IMG/VR virus record: IMGVR_UViG_3300047557_003946
Span: 1 to 32,600 of that record
DNA from: a virus
Strand: one strand, 5' to 3'
Length of the DNA stretch: 32,600 nucleotides
Shown here: one piece after another, positions 1 through 29,448 of the stretch
Position numbering within the stretch: the first letter of the stretch is position 1
Layout: each line of letters starts with the position of its first letter
Program-made: the position numbers and the translations under genes
The notes under the pieces: generated by a model
The model's database searches: none
What the model saw: only the letters and a program-made list of their open reading frames with translations
What the model was told of the DNA's origin: nothing

Positions 1-204
1 TATGCAAACTTTCCACCAACCATTGCTGATACAATTTGTGGAGCATCCAACTACCCCACACTCTCATCAGTGCAAAAAAACACAGATGCAACTTTAACTG
101 GATGGACAACAACTGTAACAGCTGGTGATATTATATTATTCAATGTAATATCTGCAACCACAGTAACAAGAGTAAACTTAATTGTAAACGTAGTTAAAAC
201 ATAA
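1..204 (+). CDS. C-terminal end of a phage structural (probably tail fibre) protein, partial
   Basis: Reading frame 1 is open from the first base to a TAA at 202-204, giving 67 residues of a protein whose start lies outside the window. The visible part contains a DTICGASNYP segment and then a Thr/Val-rich beta-type tail (GDIILFNV, ATTVTRVNLIVNVVKT). This pattern resembles the C-terminal receptor-facing domains of phage fibre and appendage proteins, but that is by impression rather than a search. The next gene starts four bases after the stop, so it heads or continues a structural operon. Function is inferred from style and position only. Confidence 0.6.
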   Translation, partial: YANFPPTIADTICGASNYPTLSSVQKNTDATLTGWTTTVTAGDIILFNVISATTVTRVNLIVNVVKT

Positions 205-2273: not shown

Positions 2274-2284
2274 GACTATTTATA
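2274..2284 (+). promoter_or_regulatory. Exact copy of phage motif GACTATTTATA, candidate promoter of the sheath-tube unit
   Basis: GACTATTTATA ends 25 bases before the sheath ATG. The same 11-mer recurs exactly at 17036, 24608, 30240 and 31897, always just upstream of a gene start. Position and spacing suit a -10-like promoter element with a short leader. Confidence 0.6.
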
Positions 2285-2309: not shown

Positions 2310-4700
2310 ATGGCCGAAAGAATAGTATCACCTGGAGTCTTTACAAACGAAAAAGACCTTTCGTTTTTACCAACCGGTATATCCGAGATTGGAGCTGCAA
2401 TCATTGGTCCTACCTTAAAGGGACCAGCTTTTGTACCAACAGTAATTCGAAACTTTAATGATTTTATTGTAAAATTTGGTGGTTTAAGTGAAACTACCTA
2501 CGTTCCTTATGCTGTTAAGAGCTACTTACAAGCAGCTGGAACAGTGACTGTGGTTCGAGTTCTGCAAGAAGGTGGATATGCTGGCAACATTATACAAATT
2601 GTTGTGTCTAGTAGCTTTGGCGAAAAACTTGTATCTACGCTAAGACCAACTACTACTGTAGGCCAAGCTTCAGGAAGCAGCTACACTAATTCAGATTTTT
2701 CATCAATGATTGGACAATCTGTAACTGGCTCTTTTGGTGTAGTTATTTCTGGTTCATCAGCACCAAGTGCATCACGAGTAACCGCTTCTCTTCAACCATC
2801 AAAACCAGCCTTCATTAGTAAGGTAGTTGGTGCTGGAGTAGTAAACTCAAATCCAGTATACGCTACTAGCACTTTTACAAACTTCTTAACGACAGTCTCT
2901 GCCTTATCTGGTTCAATTGTGTCAACGGTCTTAACCTCTTCGGCCGCTTTTGCAAACTACTCACAATCAACAGCAGGTCTTTATCAGGCAGCTAGAACTT
3001 CCTACATCACATCTCAGATTCTTGGAGGCCAACAACTATCACTATTTAAGTTTCATACTCTGGCAGACGGAACCGATACCAATAAATTTGTAAAAATAAG
3101 TATCATCAACAACTCCTTACCTGGAACTGTGCAAGGTACTGATTACGGTTTGTTTACCGTATTAGTTCGCGACTTCGCCGACACAGATCAGCAACCACTC
3201 GTACTCGAAACATATAACAACTTGACCTTGGACCCAGATTCACCAAACTACATATCTCGCCGAATTGGTGATAGATATTATAGGGTGAGTGATGCGGGGG
3301 TTCTAACTCTTTTGGGAGATTATGATAATGTTTCAAAGTATGTTCGTGTAGAAGTTGTTGATGATGTAAAAAACAAAGCAATTTCACCAAGTGTAAAACC
3401 TTTTGGTTTTGAAACTTTCATTCAACCAATTTCATCAAGCTACCGTATTCCAACTGCCTCTTACGTAATTCAAGACACTATTATTAATGGTGCTTACAAT
3501 AAAAAAGCATATTACGGCTGGAATTTTGGTGAGACTGACAATGATATCTATCTTGAACCACTAACCTATAATTCGTTCCAGAACGGTACTAATTTTAATC
3601 TAGACACAAGTTTTGTACATCCTAGTGCATCCGCTGCTAGTGCTAACTCAGTATTTGTAGGTGGTGCAAGCATCTCTGGATCCACTTTTTCAGGTGTTGA
3701 TGTTTCAAACATACTTAAATTCACTGTACCATTCCAGGGTGGATTTGACGGAATGGATCCAGCCATACCTAAAAACGTAGGTGCAAACATTCTTCCAGAA
3801 AACTTATTTGGAATGAACTGCTCAAACGCATCAAAAGCTGGAGCAAAAGCTTATATAAAAGCACTGAATGTGATTGCTGACGCTGAATCCTTTGATTTGA
3901 ATTTGATTGCAGTACCTGGAGCTACCATTGCCGATCACTCAGCGATTGTGACTAAAGCTATTGAAGTAGCAGAAGATCGTGGAGATTGTTTTGTGATAGC
4001 TGACCCAGTAGTACAAGGAAGTTCTGTAGCAGCTGCAATATCAGCTTTGGATATTAACCCAATCGACTCTAACTACGTAGGTGTATACTGGCCTTGGATT
4101 AAAATACTTGATACTGATAGAAATAAACCAGTTTGGGTACCACCTTCTGTAGTTGTTCCTAGAGTATTTGCTTATAATGACTCAGTAGCTTTTGAGTGGT
4201 TTGCACCTGCAGGATTGAATAGAGGTGGCATTGCAGAAGCAATAGATGCAGAGATCAGATTAACACAAGCTGATCGTGACGATCTATATGAAAAGCGAAT
4301 CAACCCAATCGCAACATTCCCAGCACAAGGTATATGTATCTGGGGTCAGAAGACGCTACAAGTTAAGCCTTCCGCTCTAGATAGAATCAACGTACGAAGA
4401 CTATTAATAACTCTGAAAAAGTTCATTGCCAGTGCTTCGAGATACTTAGTGTTTGAAAACAATACTGCTGAAACTAGGCTAAGATTTGTAAACATCGTAA
4501 CACCTTATTTGGATGGTGTAAAATCTCGTCAAGGTCTTTACGCTTTCCGAGTGGTAATGGACGAAACAAACAACACACCAGACGTAATTGACAGAAATAT
4601 CATGTACGGTCAGATATACTTACAACCTGCAAAAACAGCTGAGTTTATTATTCTTGACTTTAATATTCTACCAACTGGTGCAACATTTACTAACGCTTAA
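2310..4700 (+). CDS. 18: Tail sheath protein (T4 gp18-like)
   Basis: 796 residues. It opens with MAERIVSPGVFTNEKDLSF, the classic contractile-sheath N-terminus (SPGVyxxExDxS), followed by an Ile/Gly-rich stretch (IGAAIIGPTLKGPAFVPT) and FNDFIVKFGG. The C-terminal part carries the conserved sheath core: NPIATFPAQGICIWGQKTLQ, DRINVRRLLITLKKFI and RGDCFVIADPVV upstream of it. It polymerises around the tail tube and contracts at infection. It is longer than T4 gp18 (about 660 residues); the extra length lies in the variable, surface-exposed middle region (about residues 100-450), which is Ser/Thr-rich. It is followed 20 bases later by the tube gene, the normal T4-type order. Confidence 0.95.
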   Translation: MAERIVSPGVFTNEKDLSFLPTGISEIGAAIIGPTLKGPAFVPTVIRNFNDFIVKFGGLSETTYVPYAVKSYLQAAGTVTVVRVLQEGGYAGNIIQIVVSSSFGEKLVSTLRPTTTVGQASGSSYTNSDFSSMIGQSVTGSFGVVISGSSAPSASRVTASLQPSKPAFISKVVGAGVVNSNPVYATSTFTNFLTTVSALSGSIVSTVLTSSAAFANYSQSTAGLYQAARTSYITSQILGGQQLSLFKFHTLADGTDTNKFVKISIINNSLPGTVQGTDYGLFTVLVRDFADTDQQPLVLETYNNLTLDPDSPNYISRRIGDRYYRVSDAGVLTLLGDYDNVSKYVRVEVVDDVKNKAISPSVKPFGFETFIQPISSSYRIPTASYVIQDTIINGAYNKKAYYGWNFGETDNDIYLEPLTYNSFQNGTNFNLDTSFVHPSASAASANSVFVGGASISGSTFSGVDVSNILKFTVPFQGGFDGMDPAIPKNVGANILPENLFGMNCSNASKAGAKAYIKALNVIADAESFDLNLIAVPGATIADHSAIVTKAIEVAEDRGDCFVIADPVVQGSSVAAAISALDINPIDSNYVGVYWPWIKILDTDRNKPVWVPPSVVVPRVFAYNDSVAFEWFAPAGLNRGGIAEAIDAEIRLTQADRDDLYEKRINPIATFPAQGICIWGQKTLQVKPSALDRINVRRLLITLKKFIASASRYLVFENNTAETRLRFVNIVTPYLDGVKSRQGLYAFRVVMDETNNTPDVIDRNIMYGQIYLQPAKTAEFIILDFNILPTGATFTNA

Positions 4701-4710
4701 TACTTATATA
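4701..4710 (+). promoter_or_regulatory. Weak A/T element between sheath and tube genes
   Basis: TACTTATATA directly after the sheath stop resembles the recurrent motif only loosely and lies 10 bases before the tube ATG. It could raise tube expression or be a translation-start A/T-rich stretch; support is weak. Confidence 0.2.
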
Positions 4711-4720
4711 AAAACACACT

Positions 4721-5212
4721 ATGGCCAATTTATTAGACGATAGCCAAATATTTTTTACCAAGTACGAACCAAAAGTTCAGAACAGATTTTACTTGGTAAA
4801 CACAGCAGGGATACCATCCTTCATTATTAAGAAAGTAACCCGTCCCCAACTCGAATGTGGTGAGGTTGTTTTGGATCACATTAACATTATCCGTAAGCTA
4901 AAAGGAAAGTGTAAATGGCAGGACATGACTATGACACTGTATGATCCAATTGTTCCTTCAGGAGCTCAATCAGTAATGGAATGGGTCAGAACCTCACACG
5001 AATCTGTAACTGGTCGTGATGGATACGCAGATTTTTACAAGCAAACTTTAGACATATTTACACTCGGTCCTGTGGGTGATAAAATTGAGCAATGGACTAT
5101 TGTTGGTGCTTATGTAAAAACTGCTAATTTTGGTGACTTGGATTGGTCAACTGAAACTCAAGTTGAAATTCAGCTTACTATCGGATACGATTACGCAGTA
5201 CTTAACTACTAA
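4721..5212 (+). CDS. 19: Tail tube protein (T4 gp19-like)
   Basis: 163 residues, the same length as T4 gp19, immediately downstream of the sheath gene. Features include the N-terminal helix/turn (DSQIFFTKYEPKVQNRFYL), the IPSFIIKKVTRPQLE strand region, LKGKCKWQDMTMTLYDPIVP and a C-terminal WTIVGAYVKTANFGDLDWS...VEIQLTIGYDYAVLNY. This is the conserved pattern of the gp19/Hcp-like tube fold. The protein stacks as hexameric rings inside the sheath and forms the DNA channel. A strong terminator follows the stop codon, closing the sheath-tube unit. Confidence 0.95.
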   Translation: MANLLDDSQIFFTKYEPKVQNRFYLVNTAGIPSFIIKKVTRPQLECGEVVLDHINIIRKLKGKCKWQDMTMTLYDPIVPSGAQSVMEWVRTSHESVTGRDGYADFYKQTLDIFTLGPVGDKIEQWTIVGAYVKTANFGDLDWSTETQVEIQLTIGYDYAVLNY

Positions 5213-15730: not shown

Positions 15731-17032
15731 ATGATTATTGATTATCAAAGCCAACTTGACTATTTTAGGGGAAGAAAGGTCTTTCTATATCCCGTTCTTG
15801 AGGATAGTAGATTGCACATGGTGGCTAATAAGATAATTGCGTTCGTTCTTGTTGATGTTGAAAATAAGCAAACTTATTCCATAAGTAAGGAACATCCGGA
15901 TGGTATATATCACCACTCAAATTTAGATTTTCTAGAGGAATCCACTGTTTATTGCTACGACATAGCTTTCTTTAAACAAGAAGGATACGATACAACTAAA
16001 TTCATTGACGTCCAGTTTCAATACTATTTGAAAACAAATCAAGCTTGTAATTTTGAAACTCCTCAGATCCTCAAACACTATGCTCGTTATTTTCCAAAAT
16101 GTGAAAAGTCAGGTGTATTAGTGAGCTTACAAAAGCATGAAGAAATTGCTTTTAATTTATTTAGAGAGGTCTTTGTAGAGGAACTACAATCTGGATTAGC
16201 TTTTTATCAAAGTAAATTACTAAACGTTTTTACAGCTATCGAAAAGAATGGACTCAAGATAGATGAAAAAAGCTTTACAGAAAGATTTGGTGAAACCTTT
16301 TCAAAGCGAAAAGACTTTTGCTATACACACTACAACTTTTATACTACAACCGGAAGACCGAGTAATCGATTTGGTGGAATTAATTTCGCAGCTCTAAACA
16401 AAGAGGATGATACAAGAGAGTGCTTTATTTCTCGATATGGAGAAGATGGTACTCTTGTAGAGATTGACTTTAACTCCTACCACCCACGACTAATAGCTGC
16501 GATGCTAGAGTATGATTTTAACGGTGAGAATGTCTATGAGCATTTAGCAAAGCATTTTAACCAAACTCAAACTCCAACACAAGAGCAGATTGGAGAAGCT
16601 AAGGAGTTAACTTTTAGACAATTATATGGTGGTGTGCAAAAGCAATATATGCATGTTCCTTTTCTTAATGCAACAAACAGCTTGGCTTATTTGTTATGGA
16701 AAGAAGCAAATGAGACTGGATACATACAAAGTCCTATATCAGAGAGGAAGCTGATACTCAGTAATTATCAGGATATAAACTGCTATACACTGTTTAACTA
16801 CTATATTCAAATGTTTGAAACTGAGACTAATGTTCTCATTCTTGAAAAGCTTCTTGAACAATTAGTTGAAAGAAAGTGCTTACCTATACTTTATACCTAT
16901 GATAGTATCTTGTTTGACGTACACAAAACGGAAATAGACTATCTTTTGCAGCACGTTTTACCCACTGTTATTGACCAAAAACAGTTTCCAATCAAGACAA
17001 AAACTGGTGTAAATTACAGAGTTTTGAAATAA
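15731..17032 (+). CDS. Divergent short family A DNA polymerase
   Basis: 433 residues. Polymerase landmarks are in order: TTTGRPSNRFGGINFAAL (205-222, the TGR motif); motif A VEIDFNSYHPRL with Asp246; motif B AKELTFRQLYGG with Lys291, Phe295, Tyr299 at the family's four-residue spacing; motif C LYTYDSILFD with Asp391. Both metal-binding aspartates are kept. The O-helix arginine is Ile287, the usual motif A Glu is His251, and motif C HDE is YDS. The first about 150 residues may be a decayed exonuclease domain. T4-like phages normally use a family B enzyme (gp43), so this is either a replacement or an extra polymerase. It opens the replication cluster. Confidence 0.8.
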   Translation: MIIDYQSQLDYFRGRKVFLYPVLEDSRLHMVANKIIAFVLVDVENKQTYSISKEHPDGIYHHSNLDFLEESTVYCYDIAFFKQEGYDTTKFIDVQFQYYLKTNQACNFETPQILKHYARYFPKCEKSGVLVSLQKHEEIAFNLFREVFVEELQSGLAFYQSKLLNVFTAIEKNGLKIDEKSFTERFGETFSKRKDFCYTHYNFYTTTGRPSNRFGGINFAALNKEDDTRECFISRYGEDGTLVEIDFNSYHPRLIAAMLEYDFNGENVYEHLAKHFNQTQTPTQEQIGEAKELTFRQLYGGVQKQYMHVPFLNATNSLAYLLWKEANETGYIQSPISERKLILSNYQDINCYTLFNYYIQMFETETNVLILEKLLEQLVERKCLPILYTYDSILFDVHKTEIDYLLQHVLPTVIDQKQFPIKTKTGVNYRVLK

Positions 17033-17035
17033 GTT

Positions 17036-17046
17036 GACTATTTATA
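17036..17046 (+). promoter_or_regulatory. Exact copy of phage motif GACTATTTATA
   Basis: Lies three bases after the polymerase stop and 29 bases before the next ATG (17076). Confidence 0.6.
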
Positions 17047-17075
17047 CAAGAGCTGAATGCTTGTTTAAATAATTA

Positions 17076-17456
17076 ATGAAACAACAATTACTTTGTACTT
17101 TTACGTATATTGACAAGTTACACACTAGCCTTGCCCAGATCTACAAGACATATAGCATAGACGGTGTAAAAAATATGCAGTGCTATCATTACACAGTAGC
17201 ACCAAATAATGTGATTTGCGTATATAACGTTGATATCAACGAAAAGAGGTTAAAAGATACAATAACTATCAATCGAAAAAAACAAACAAACACGCTCTAT
17301 AGTATAAACGCTCTTAATAGTTTGATTAAGTTTCTTAACAATGGAGTACTTGATAAGACGTTTGTAGTAAACTGGGAAGATTATTCTAACTCACTTTTAC
17401 TATCAGACAATGTGAACGGGTACAAAATTGTAGATATAAAAGAACTATCTTATTAG
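17076..17456 (+). CDS. Conserved phage protein of unknown function
   Basis: 126 residues, compact alpha/beta with no recognisable catalytic motif. It starts QLLCTFTYIDKLHTSLAQIY and contains a striking conserved-looking core ITINRKKQTNTLYSINALNS (residues 66-85), followed by FVVNWEDYSNSLLL. I associate this core with a small protein found widely in marine T4-like phages near replication genes, but no function is known to me. It sits between the polymerase and the SSB gene with its own promoter-like motif. Its small size and core rich in Lys, Arg, Asn and Thr would fit an RNA or DNA binder; that is speculation. Confidence 0.75.
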   Translation: MKQQLLCTFTYIDKLHTSLAQIYKTYSIDGVKNMQCYHYTVAPNNVICVYNVDINEKRLKDTITINRKKQTNTLYSINALNSLIKFLNNGVLDKTFVVNWEDYSNSLLLSDNVNGYKIVDIKELSY

Positions 17457-23844: not shown

Positions 23845-24182
23845 AGCACTTAAACCAAGACTGGGTTTACCAGCTTTACGTTAAAGAACAAATAACATCA
23901 AATATGAATTATAAACTGGGATCAAGAGGGCCTGATGTAAGGCAGGTACAAAGCAGACTAGGGGCATTGGTAACAGGTGTTTTTGACACCGATACACACA
24001 GACGAGTGGTTGCTTTTCAACAACAAAATGGATTGGATGTTAGTGGAATTGTGTGTGATAAAACTTGGCTTGCTTTGTTCCCACCTCCACCAGCACCTCA
24101 AGTACAAGAGGTGATTGTGGAACCTACACCAGAGCCAACTGAAGAGCCAACAACAGAAATACCAACTACAAAAAAGAAATAA
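23841..24182 (+). CDS. Peptidoglycan-binding domain protein without a catalytic domain
   Basis: 113 residues. Residues about 24-80 form a PG_binding_1-type domain: YKLGSRGPDVRQVQSRLG, then VTGVFDTDTHRRVVAFQQQN and VSGIVCDKTWLALF. Residues 81-113 are a Pro/Glu/Thr-rich tail ending TTKKK. No amidase, muramidase or peptidase domain and no signal peptide are present. ATG 23841 overlaps the reductase stop; an internal ATG at 23904 would give almost exactly the domain alone. Possible roles are a lysis auxiliary, a virion cell-wall anchor or a targeting subunit for a separate endolysin. The dUTPase start overlaps its stop by one base. Confidence 0.8.
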   Translation: MKHLNQDWVYQLYVKEQITSNMNYKLGSRGPDVRQVQSRLGALVTGVFDTDTHRRVVAFQQQNGLDVSGIVCDKTWLALFPPPPAPQVQEVIVEPTPEPTEEPTTEIPTTKKK

Positions 24183-24607
24183 TGAAAGTAGGAGTTAAAA
24201 AGTTACATCCAAACGCAGTTATACCTACATATGCAAAACCAGGAGATGCTGGTTTAGACTTAACTGCAGTAGAAATTATCAATAGTGAAGGGTTTCAAAT
24301 TACTTACAAAACAGGACTAGCTTTTGAAATACCACTAGGTTACGTAGGACTTATTTTTCCAAGAAGCTCAGTTAGAAACTATGCAATCAGTTTATCAAAC
24401 TGCGTAGGAGTAGTTGACTCTGGCTACAGAGGTGAAATACAGTTTACCTTCAACAAACTTGCCGGTATTCCGTCCAAAGCCTATAAAGTTGGGGACAGAA
24501 TAGGTCAGCTAATTATCATGCCGTATCCTCAGATTGAACTGCTTGAGATGGAAACTTTGTCTGAAACAGAAAGAGGTGAAGGTGGGTTTGGATCTTCAGG
24601 AAATTGA
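24182..24607 (+). CDS. dut: dUTPase (deoxyuridine 5'-triphosphate nucleotidohydrolase)
   Basis: 141 residues with all five motifs of the homotrimeric dUTPase family: I, PGDAGLDL (20-27); II, PRSSV (60-64); III, GVVDSGYRGEI (76-86) with the catalytic Asp79 and Tyr82; IV, GDRIGQLI (104-111); V, RGEGGFGSSG (131-140). It hydrolyses dUTP to dUMP, keeping uracil out of DNA and feeding dTMP synthesis. It is coupled to the preceding gene by a TAATG overlap and sits in the nucleotide-metabolism run after the ribonucleotide reductase. Confidence 0.95.
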   Translation: MKVGVKKLHPNAVIPTYAKPGDAGLDLTAVEIINSEGFQITYKTGLAFEIPLGYVGLIFPRSSVRNYAISLSNCVGVVDSGYRGEIQFTFNKLAGIPSKAYKVGDRIGQLIIMPYPQIELLEMETLSETERGEGGFGSSGN

Positions 24608-24618
24608 GACTATTTATA
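24608..24618 (+). promoter_or_regulatory. Exact copy of phage motif GACTATTTATA upstream of the ferritin gene
   Basis: Starts one base after the dUTPase stop and ends 16 bases before the ferritin ATG. Confidence 0.6.
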
Positions 24619-24634
24619 AGAAACAATAAAGCAT

Positions 24635-25177
24635 ATGGATTTACCTAAATCAACAGTACAAAATGTAGTTGCAGAGCAGTCTTCCGTACTGCTTCCACGC
24701 ACTCTCACACCAGAAATCGTAGATATGATCAATAGTGCAATTGCAGAAGAATATACTGCACATTATTTTTATCGGGGAGCATCAAACTGGTGTCAAGGAG
24801 TTGCCTACTTTAAAGCAGCTGCTTTCTTTGCAGCAGAAGCAAATGCTGAACTAGAGCACGCTGAAAAATTACAAAAGTATCTAGTTGATTGGAATGCAAC
24901 ACCAGTACTACCATCAGTAAAATTCTCAGGTAACTTTAATAGTTTGATTGATGTAGTAAATAAAAGCTATGCAATTGAATACACATTAGGTGATAAATAT
25001 ATGGGCTGGGCATCGGAAATGTTTAGTAAGCATTTGATGACTTTTAACTTTTTGCAAGGGTTTGTTGATATTCAAAACGAGTCTATAGCTGAAATGTCTG
25101 ATAAACTTAATGCAGCTCAATTAGTTGACGTTAGCAATAAACTCGATCTTTTGCATTACGAAGAAAGGTATTTCTAA
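24635..25177 (+). CDS. Ferritin-like iron-storage protein
   Basis: 180 residues, the length of bacterial ferritins (E. coli FtnA 165). It aligns by eye along most of FtnA: INSAIAEEYTAHYFYRGASN matches helix A, and AAAFFAAEANAELEHAEKLQ matches helix B with the ExxH pair Glu72-His75. SYAIEYTLGDKY gives helix C Glu115, and FNFLQGFVDIQNES gives helix D Gln147. With Glu38/39 these are the ferroxidase-centre positions (Glu17, Glu50, His53, Glu94, Gln127 in FtnA). It should assemble a cage that oxidises and stores iron. An 18-residue N-terminal extension precedes helix A. It has its own promoter-like motif, suggesting strong or timed expression. Confidence 0.88.
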   Translation: MDLPKSTVQNVVAEQSSVLLPRTLTPEIVDMINSAIAEEYTAHYFYRGASNWCQGVAYFKAAAFFAAEANAELEHAEKLQKYLVDWNATPVLPSVKFSGNFNSLIDVVNKSYAIEYTLGDKYMGWASEMFSKHLMTFNFLQGFVDIQNESIAEMSDKLNAAQLVDVSNKLDLLHYEERYF

Positions 25178-27885: not shown

Positions 27886-28347
27886 ATGAAGTTTCAATCG
27901 ACAAAATTATTTGACGGATACTCAACTTGTTTCCGTCAGTGGAAAGCAGAAGGAACACACTGCAAATATCTGCACGGTTATGCCATATCATTCAGAGTGT
28001 GGTTTGAGGGTGAGTTGGATGAAAGAAATTGGGTTTTTGATTTTGGTGGAATGAAAAGAGCTAAAACAGAAATCAATCACATGCAGCCAAGAGAGTTTTT
28101 TAACTGGTTGCTAGATCACACAACCATAATAGCTCAAGATGATCCATATCTAGAAACATTCAGACAAATGAACAAAGATGGTATTATTCAACTTAGAGTG
28201 CTTCCAGCAACTGGATGTGAGCAATTTGCAAAATACCTTTTTGAAGTTATTAACACCTTCTTAAAAAAAGAAACTGAAGGTAGAGTACGAGCAATCAAAG
28301 TAGAAGTATATGAACACGAAAAAAACGCAGCAAGTTATGGAGAATAA
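27886..28347 (+). CDS. QueD-like / 6-pyruvoyl-tetrahydropterin synthase-family protein with altered zinc site
   Basis: 153 residues of the T-fold family: THCKYLHGYAISFRVWF aligns with the Cys...LHGH segment of QueD, NWVFDFGGMKRAK with the DF.xLK strand, LLDHTTI with the LDH motif, and the C-terminal IKVEVYEHEKNA with the terminal Glu strand. Cys26, Asp77 and His78 are retained. Of the three zinc histidines of E. coli QueD (16, 31, 33), only the middle one (His30) is seen; the others are Phe16 and Tyr32. The pathway, if intact, makes carboxytetrahydropterin for 7-deazaguanine synthesis, and QueE is encoded two genes downstream. The loss of zinc ligands makes the exact reaction uncertain. Confidence 0.75.
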   Translation: MKFQSTKLFDGYSTCFRQWKAEGTHCKYLHGYAISFRVWFEGELDERNWVFDFGGMKRAKTEINHMQPREFFNWLLDHTTIIAQDDPYLETFRQMNKDGIIQLRVLPATGCEQFAKYLFEVINTFLKKETEGRVRAIKVEVYEHEKNAASYGE

Positions 28348-28351
28348 TGAA

Positions 28352-28558
28352 ATGAAATCCCTATATGAGTATTTGGGGAAAGCAGCAGGACCTGAACTAG
28401 GAAAAGCAGTTGCACAAGCAGCAACAAGAGCAGGAGTAAAAATCGATTCACAAGAAGTTAGTAATCCTAAGTATGTAGGAAGTATTTTAAAATATCCAAT
28501 ATCCTTCTTGAACGAATATTTTGGAGCTCACACACCTGACCTACTAAAAAAGAAATAA
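28352..28558 (+). CDS. Small protein of unknown function between queD-like and queE genes
   Basis: 68 residues from ATG 28352, which gives MKSLYEYLGKAAGPELGKAV; earlier in-frame ATGs at 28337 and 28310 overlap the queD-like gene and give less protein-like starts. The N-terminal half is an Ala/Gly-rich helix. The second half contains VSNPKYVGSILKYPISFLNE and ends DLLKKK. The MK.LYEYL start is reminiscent of short phage proteins and loosely of the T4 capsid-targeting leader, but there is no [LI]xE site close by. Two bases separate it from queE. Function unknown. Confidence 0.6.
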   Translation: MKSLYEYLGKAAGPELGKAVAQAATRAGVKIDSQEVSNPKYVGSILKYPISFLNEYFGAHTPDLLKKK

Positions 28559-28560
28559 AC

Positions 28561-29448
28561 ATGGATAGAAATAAATTATTAATTAGTTCTGATTTTTACT
28601 CAGTGCAAGGTGAAGGCAAATCCTCAGGAGTGCCTTCTTATTTTGTAAGATTAGGTACTTGCAATTTAACTTGCGGTATGAGTAGATTATTTACCAACAA
28701 GCTTTTAAAAGAAAAATCTCTTGAAGATGGAGAAATCTTCGTAGGCGATTTACAAGCTGAGGGGAAAGCAACTTGGACTTGTGATAGTACATCTCAGTGG
28801 TTATGGAGAGGTGAAGAGAAAGACTTTCAATATTTAATTGATCGTTGGAAGGAGCAGGGTATCTACGAAGATATTAAAAATGGTACTATTCATATCATTT
28901 GGACTGGTGGTGAACCTACAATTAAAGGACATCAAGAAGCTATTGTTAACTTTTTTAAGTATTGGGCTAAGTATGTTATTAAGGAAGAGATGAAGTTGAT
29001 CCCTAGAAACGATACCGAGATTGATATGGATTTGAGTTTTGTGAGAAATATCCGTACGTTTAATGAGATAGAAACCAACGGTACTGTTTTTATTGAAGAT
29101 GATCTATTCCGCTCTATTCACCAAATCAACTGCTCACCTAAACTAGCCAACTCAGGTATGACTGAGAAACAACGTATCAATCCTGATGCTATTAAACGTA
29201 TAATGGAACATTCCAATTATCAGTTCAAGTTTGTTGTTAGCATAGAAGATGACATCAAAGAGATTTTTAGAGACTTTATTGAGCCGTTTAACATTCCATT
29301 AAAGAATGTAGTGATAATGCCTGGAATGGATAGTCAAGAAGACTTCCACGAAAGAACACAATTCAGCCTAGAGATGGCAAAGAAGTACAAGCTGAGAGGT
29401 TTAACAAGGTTACACATAAGTGGATGGGATAAAACATTAAATGTATAA
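28561..29448 (+). CDS. queE: QueE-like radical SAM enzyme, 7-carboxy-7-deazaguanine synthase
   Basis: 295 residues. The N-terminus ISSDFYSVQGEGKSSGVPSY, then FVRLGTCNLTC, is diagnostic of QueE (SxQGEG..G.P..FvRl..CNL.C). Cluster cysteines are Cys34, Cys38 and most likely Cys74 (ATWTCDS), giving an unusual CX3CX35C spacing. WTGGEPTI (114-121) is the radical-SAM SAM-binding motif, and FNEIETNGT and HQINCSPKLANSG match later QueE segments. It converts carboxytetrahydropterin to 7-carboxy-7-deazaguanine, the precursor of preQ0 for tRNA queuosine or for modified phage DNA. QueC, FolE and a DNA-inserting transglycosylase are not in this window. Confidence 0.88.
   Translation: MDRNKLLISSDFYSVQGEGKSSGVPSYFVRLGTCNLTCGMSRLFTNKLLKEKSLEDGEIFVGDLQAEGKATWTCDSTSQWLWRGEEKDFQYLIDRWKEQGIYEDIKNGTIHIIWTGGEPTIKGHQEAIVNFFKYWAKYVIKEEMKLIPRNDTEIDMDLSFVRNIRTFNEIETNGTVFIEDDLFRSIHQINCSPKLANSGMTEKQRINPDAIKRIMEHSNYQFKFVVSIEDDIKEIFRDFIEPFNIPLKNVVIMPGMDSQEDFHERTQFSLEMAKKYKLRGLTRLHISGWDKTLNV

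Follow-up and report, generated by a model that had tools for sequence, protein, structure and literature searches.

A gene of the window, as we call the whole 32,600-nt stretch of viral DNA analysed here, encodes a genuine ferritin of the non-haem Ftn type and is carried by a tailed phage (Table 1). It belongs to a separate, essentially virus-only lineage, and in the near clade of this lineage, which includes the window, it is coupled to an uncharacterised partner gene. The mechanism of the protein is ordinary, its carrier uncommon. While phage ferritins have been reported before and a role against Fenton damage and ROS has been proposed for them, the viral lineage and the partner coupling are new.

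Table 1 Features of the window discussed in the text
Feature	Position	Strand	Basis or context
Ferritin gene, 180 aa, ATG start	24635..25177	+	ORF, profile, alignment and model
Predicted ferritin helices	residues 26-55, 59-85, 104-132, 134-161; helix E 169-179		AlphaFold2 model
Uncharacterised partner gene, 603 aa	25183..26994	+	immediately 3' of ferritin
dUTPase gene	24182..24607	+	upstream neighbour of ferritin; cassette 'site B' follows
'Site A', 43-nt gap	17033..17075	+	between DNA polymerase gene (15731-17032) and gene 17076-17456
Promoter-like motif CTATTTATAAG	24610..24620	+	14 nt 5' of ferritin ATG
CTATTTATA motif	2276..2284	+	before tail sheath gene (2310)
Further exact CTATTTATA copies	6075, 17038, 30242, 31899	+	motif scan

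Ligands and predicted fold of the phage ferritin

The first-pass annotation had called the reading frame a ferritin, and this is confirmed by its match to the Pfam Ferritin profile PF00210 (E 3.9e-20, 72.7 bits; curated cut-off 24.5) and to solved bacterial non-haem ferritins, among them 1krq (E 1.8e-14) and the FtnA structures 4xgs and 1eum. It had also been claimed that Glu39, Glu72, His75, Glu115 and Gln147 match positions of E. coli FtnA. All five are present and align with FtnA E17, E50, H53, E94 and Q127, while Y46 aligns with Y24. None of these six residues is substituted in an alignment of 70 homologues from viral contigs (68-70 letters at each position, the remainder being gaps from truncated rows), over which identity spans 86% down to 44%. 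The alignment held the 70 phage sequences together with E. coli FtnA and the human H-chain; the aligned part of FtnA agrees with the PDB alignment.

The likeness to FtnA stands for the di-iron ferroxidase ligands and fails for the third-iron site C and Glu130. FtnA E49, E126 and E130 are replaced by A71, I146 and S150, and these losses are family-wide (mainly A/N/S, I/G/L and S). E129 corresponds to E149, at a position that varies across the family, and Trp122 is likewise lost throughout the 70-sequence alignment. The site C ligand set of FtnA (E49, E126, E129, E130) is therefore incomplete in the phage ferritin, and one B-site ligand, Glu130, is missing as well. With the other A- and B-site ligands kept, the centre reads as a complete two-iron ligand set of the H-chain type, lacking the bacterial third site.

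The human H-chain has the same ligand set (E27, Y34, E62, H65, E107, Q141), also without the bacterial Glu130, and its A144 sits at the position of phage S150. However, sequence identity to the vertebrate H-chain is low, H-chain E61 is A/N/S in the phage family, and in the PDB comparison the vertebrate H-chain ranks below bacterial ferritins. With the bacterial FtnA group (E. coli 1eum, V. cholerae 3qz3, C. jejuni 1krq) the phage protein shares the A/B ligands and Tyr24 and, in the predicted model, the fold over the full length, helix E included. It differs from this group not only in the lost site C (E49, E126), Glu130 and Trp122, but also by an identity of only ~25-31%, an N-terminal extension of ~20 aa and a family-specific LQKYLVDWN motif.

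The AlphaFold2 model, built from 40 homologues, has a pLDDT of 94.2 and predicts a ferritin-type four-helix bundle with a short helix E. Its closest solved structures are the ferritins of V. cholerae, E. coli and C. jejuni (TM 0.81-0.84, rmsd 1.1-1.5 Å, 158-161 columns), with TM 0.84 and rmsd 1.1 Å for 3qz3 and TM 0.82 for 1eum. By its short last helix the protein is more likely a classical ferritin than Dps; together with the intra-subunit ligands this helix rules against a Dps mini-ferritin, and phage Dps models rank far lower. A haem bacterioferritin was excluded, Q147 and S150 standing at the equivalents of the E127/H130-type ligands in helix D, the positions of the second His/Glu ligands. 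The four-helix fold alone is no proof of a 24-mer.

Lineage and distribution

That the ferritin is phage-borne had been proposed as well, and homologues on viral contigs bear this out. The first scan of IMG/VR gave 69 ferritin loci and the second 132 confirmed ones, so that the viral loci number at least 132; the neighbourhood counts below use 99 of them, 40 in the near clade (window included) and 59 in the far clade. Among 84,980 species genomes a single relative was detected, although the scan patterns were strict and remoter cellular relatives would escape them. It lies on the 3.2-kb contig WLOB01000499.1 of an actinobacterial MAG in GTDB. Since its neighbours are a dUTPase and a partner gene, as in the phages, this contig is probably a misbinned phage fragment. 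None of 50,697 phage records or 72,556 plasmids yielded a relative with the ferritin as query, and FtnA as query matched no more than five 'phage' contigs, all either unverified or lacking annotation.

In a tree whose other sequences were limited to Actinomycetota and five reference ferritins, the 40 phage ferritins group together (support 89), separate from all of these. Phylogeny had been suggested as the means to tell host capture from a viral lineage, and within this sampling its answer is viral; recent host capture was rejected because of the monophyletic phage clade in this limited tree and the phage neighbours of the sole cellular relative detected. The median dN/dS of near-clade ferritins is 0.11 (range 0.01-0.24, 469 pairs), and the gene is thus under purifying selection.

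By tail sheath and RNR, the closest isolated phage is Microcystis phage Mel-JY01. Since this phage has no detectable ferritin, we regard the gene as accessory. The UniProt entry A0A6J5MFB8, a 'Ftn ferritin-like protein' of an uncultured Caudovirales phage, is a fragment with 67% identity and TMt 0.93, a similarity that places it in the same lineage; we found no published study of it. The tail sheath of the window (2310-4700) is unusually long with 796 aa and is closest to those of Mel-JY01 and of Flavobacterium phages. At the gene starts of the window a Shine-Dalgarno-like match occurs in 3 of 30 cases and an A at -3 in 18 of 30, as in Bacteroidota phages.

Partner gene and promoter-like motif

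Of the near-clade loci, 38 have a gene downstream of the ferritin, and in 37 of these the partner follows directly. The sole exception (L017) has in the usual place of the partner an ORF for a GIY-YIG-like homing endonuclease (4364-4891), after which the contig ends. In most relatives the two genes overlap, with the partner starting 20 or 23 nt before the ferritin gene ends. In the window this overlapping start now reads ACG, and the partner follows the ferritin gene at a distance of 5 nt. The N-terminal region carries the conserved motif W-x-[YF]-R-x-[PD]-K-G-Y(P/A), whereas the C-terminal part is highly variable and the mean column identity over the full length is 19%. Signatures such as GxGE..D..EVK in the C-terminal part suggest a PD-(D/E)XK-like nuclease. 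The partner had no match in Pfam, in PHROG or among phages, and none with E <0.001 in a fold search of the PDB. Homologues with the W-x-YR-x-PKGYP region and a variable nuclease-like C-terminus occur in loci L002, L004, L066 and L084, and eight far-clade loci encode a KFPKGYP-motif protein 1-3 genes 5' of the ferritin.

The ferritin-partner pair occupies two sites, following the DNA polymerase gene in 19 loci and the RNR/dUTPase genes in 20. Site A, the cassette site of the 19 relatives, is empty in the window, and it is also empty in Mel-JY01, where its two flanking genes are adjacent. Ferritin and partner therefore travel together. The surroundings of near-clade ferritins are replication and nucleotide genes, and the neighbouring RNR of the window is of the B12-dependent class, without need for iron. 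The window also carries QueD and QueE genes of the 7-deazaguanine pathway (27886-29448), suggesting that the phage DNA is modified.

An own promoter-like motif had been ascribed to the ferritin gene, and the exact CTATTTATAAG is indeed found there. The six copies of CTATTTATA in the window are all intergenic, on the coding strand and 3-34 nt 5' of a start codon, and the genes behind them include those for tail sheath, baseplate hub and ferritin. Likewise, all seven copies of CTATTTAT on the + strand are intergenic, in a window with an intergenic share of 3.7%. Taken with the variant TATTTATA, there are eight such sites between 1940 and 31909, exclusively intergenic and on the coding strand, before the tail sheath, baseplate, RNR, ferritin and other genes. 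We consider CTATTTAT/TATTTATA a probable phage promoter unlike sigma-70; the count of sigma-70 promoters is no higher than expected by chance. Upstream DNA is readable at 39 near-clade loci, and 36 of them keep TATTTAT within 60 nt 5' of the ferritin. The promoter-like motif of the ferritin is thus real, and structural genes have it too.

Proposed iron storage and rival readings

With a probability of about two in three, we propose that the gene encodes a functional ferritin that oxidises and stores iron in the infected cell, with its own promoter and a co-translated partner. The protein would form the usual 24-subunit cage, in which the two-iron centre of the H-chain type would oxidise Fe(II), and Fe(III) would be stored. 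Iron freed by the phage takeover would thereby be withheld from Fenton reactions that threaten replicating phage DNA and proteins, and it might also serve as a reserve. The gene, accessory in its viral lineage, would have a phage promoter of its own, from which the partner would be expressed as well. The most likely function would be iron sequestration against Fenton damage during infection. The suggestion that such a protein could store iron or protect from Fenton damage fits these data, and protection from ROS was proposed earlier for freshwater phages, where ferritin was counted among the ROS-defence genes (Kavagutti 2019, PMC6802176). The main text of that study mentions ferritin once, and we found no site analysis, lineage or partner gene there. 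The first-pass annotation had pointed to iron limitation in the sea; this published precedent is from freshwater. For the ferritin of giant viruses (NCLDV), which is likewise virus-encoded but belongs to viruses of eukaryotes, a role in nutrient control was proposed (PMC7136201). Our literature search found no experimentally studied phage ferritin. Some points speak against iron storage by this protein: a protein lacking site C and an equivalent of Glu130 may turn over iron and form its core differently from FtnA, nothing in the context indicates iron metabolism, and the partner is not recognisable as an iron protein.

Packaging of the ferritin in the head is possible and a fair rival, although we hold it to be unlikely that the protein is a part of the virion, made late, head-packaged or used in head or tail assembly and possibly carrying iron. 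Far-clade copies lie in late modules, with genes for scaffold-like proteins (8 loci), major capsid protein (7), prohead protease (6), tail tube (7), baseplate hub (6) and endolysin (13), and the motif of the window also stands 5' of the tail sheath. Leaders resembling the capsid-targeting leader of T4, e.g. MKKVKLFEQFIEEA or MIKLKDILKES, were counted in 89 of 812 genes neighbouring far-clade ferritins, against 11 +/- 3.4 with shuffled N-termini; in T4 such a leader is the only feature common to the internal proteins (PMC3012670). A protease of the T4 gp21 type was present in 10 of the 12 ferritin phages tested, and a short extension that ends in LxE is seen on some of the far-clade ferritins. 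However, the leader is inconstant in the ferritin itself, the shortest members having no extension and the near clade no conserved LxE, and leader-bearing genes are also found elsewhere in the same genomes. Moreover, the near-clade gene sits among replication and nucleotide genes, the very diverse far-clade neighbourhoods fit an accessory gene inserted at many sites, and a cage, once folded, could not fit through the tail. A capsid-targeting leader on the ferritin of the window was dropped as a candidate, as it is not conserved. As a separate observation, runs of adjacent genes with near-identical leaders of this kind (MKKVKLFEQ[YF]I.E[AG], MDNFNLKKFLVENKLTYNSR) occur in L034 (7329-11281), L043 (158-1746) and L053 (9256-11275) and are a candidate reservoir of packaged, ejected proteins.

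The constancy of the pair in the near clade, the overlap of start and stop in most relatives, its joint movement between two sites and the KFPKGYP-motif proteins of the far clade would also agree with ferritin and partner acting as one unit, for instance a nuclease-like counter-defence or host-takeover protein that needs the ferritin for activity or metal supply. We regard this as rather unlikely, since most far-clade loci have no partner near the ferritin and sharing an operon can be plain co-transfer, while the nuclease identity is our reading of variable C-termini in a protein with no profile or fold match. That the two form a module of iron cage and nuclease-like effector, allied to or within the head-packaged delivered proteins and serving host takeover or counter-defence instead of housekeeping storage, seems to us quite improbable. 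The family-wide loss of site C, Glu130 and Trp122 could be taken to mean that the ferritin fold no longer handles iron and has a structural or regulatory use only, yet all A/B-site ligands of the H-chain-type centre are unvaried over deep divergence, which makes this very improbable. It is hardly credible that the ferritin supplies the tails with iron by which they dock on siderophore receptors (Ferrojan Horse), the relevance that the first-pass annotation had seen in it. Some far-clade copies do adjoin tail tube and baseplate genes, but in the window's own clade the gene lies outside the tail module, no tail ORF of the window contains an HxH iron motif, and the Ferrojan Horse hypothesis is about iron held by tail fibres, for which no ferritin is needed.

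If the ferritin were nevertheless part of the virion, the particles of these phages would contain an enzyme that handles iron, a point of relevance to viral iron in water. Under the preferred reading of intracellular iron storage, the full retention of a two-iron centre in a sizeable, essentially virus-only lineage implies that iron control in infected cells has been under long selection, and the fixed coupling to an uncharacterised protein provides a concrete partner to test.
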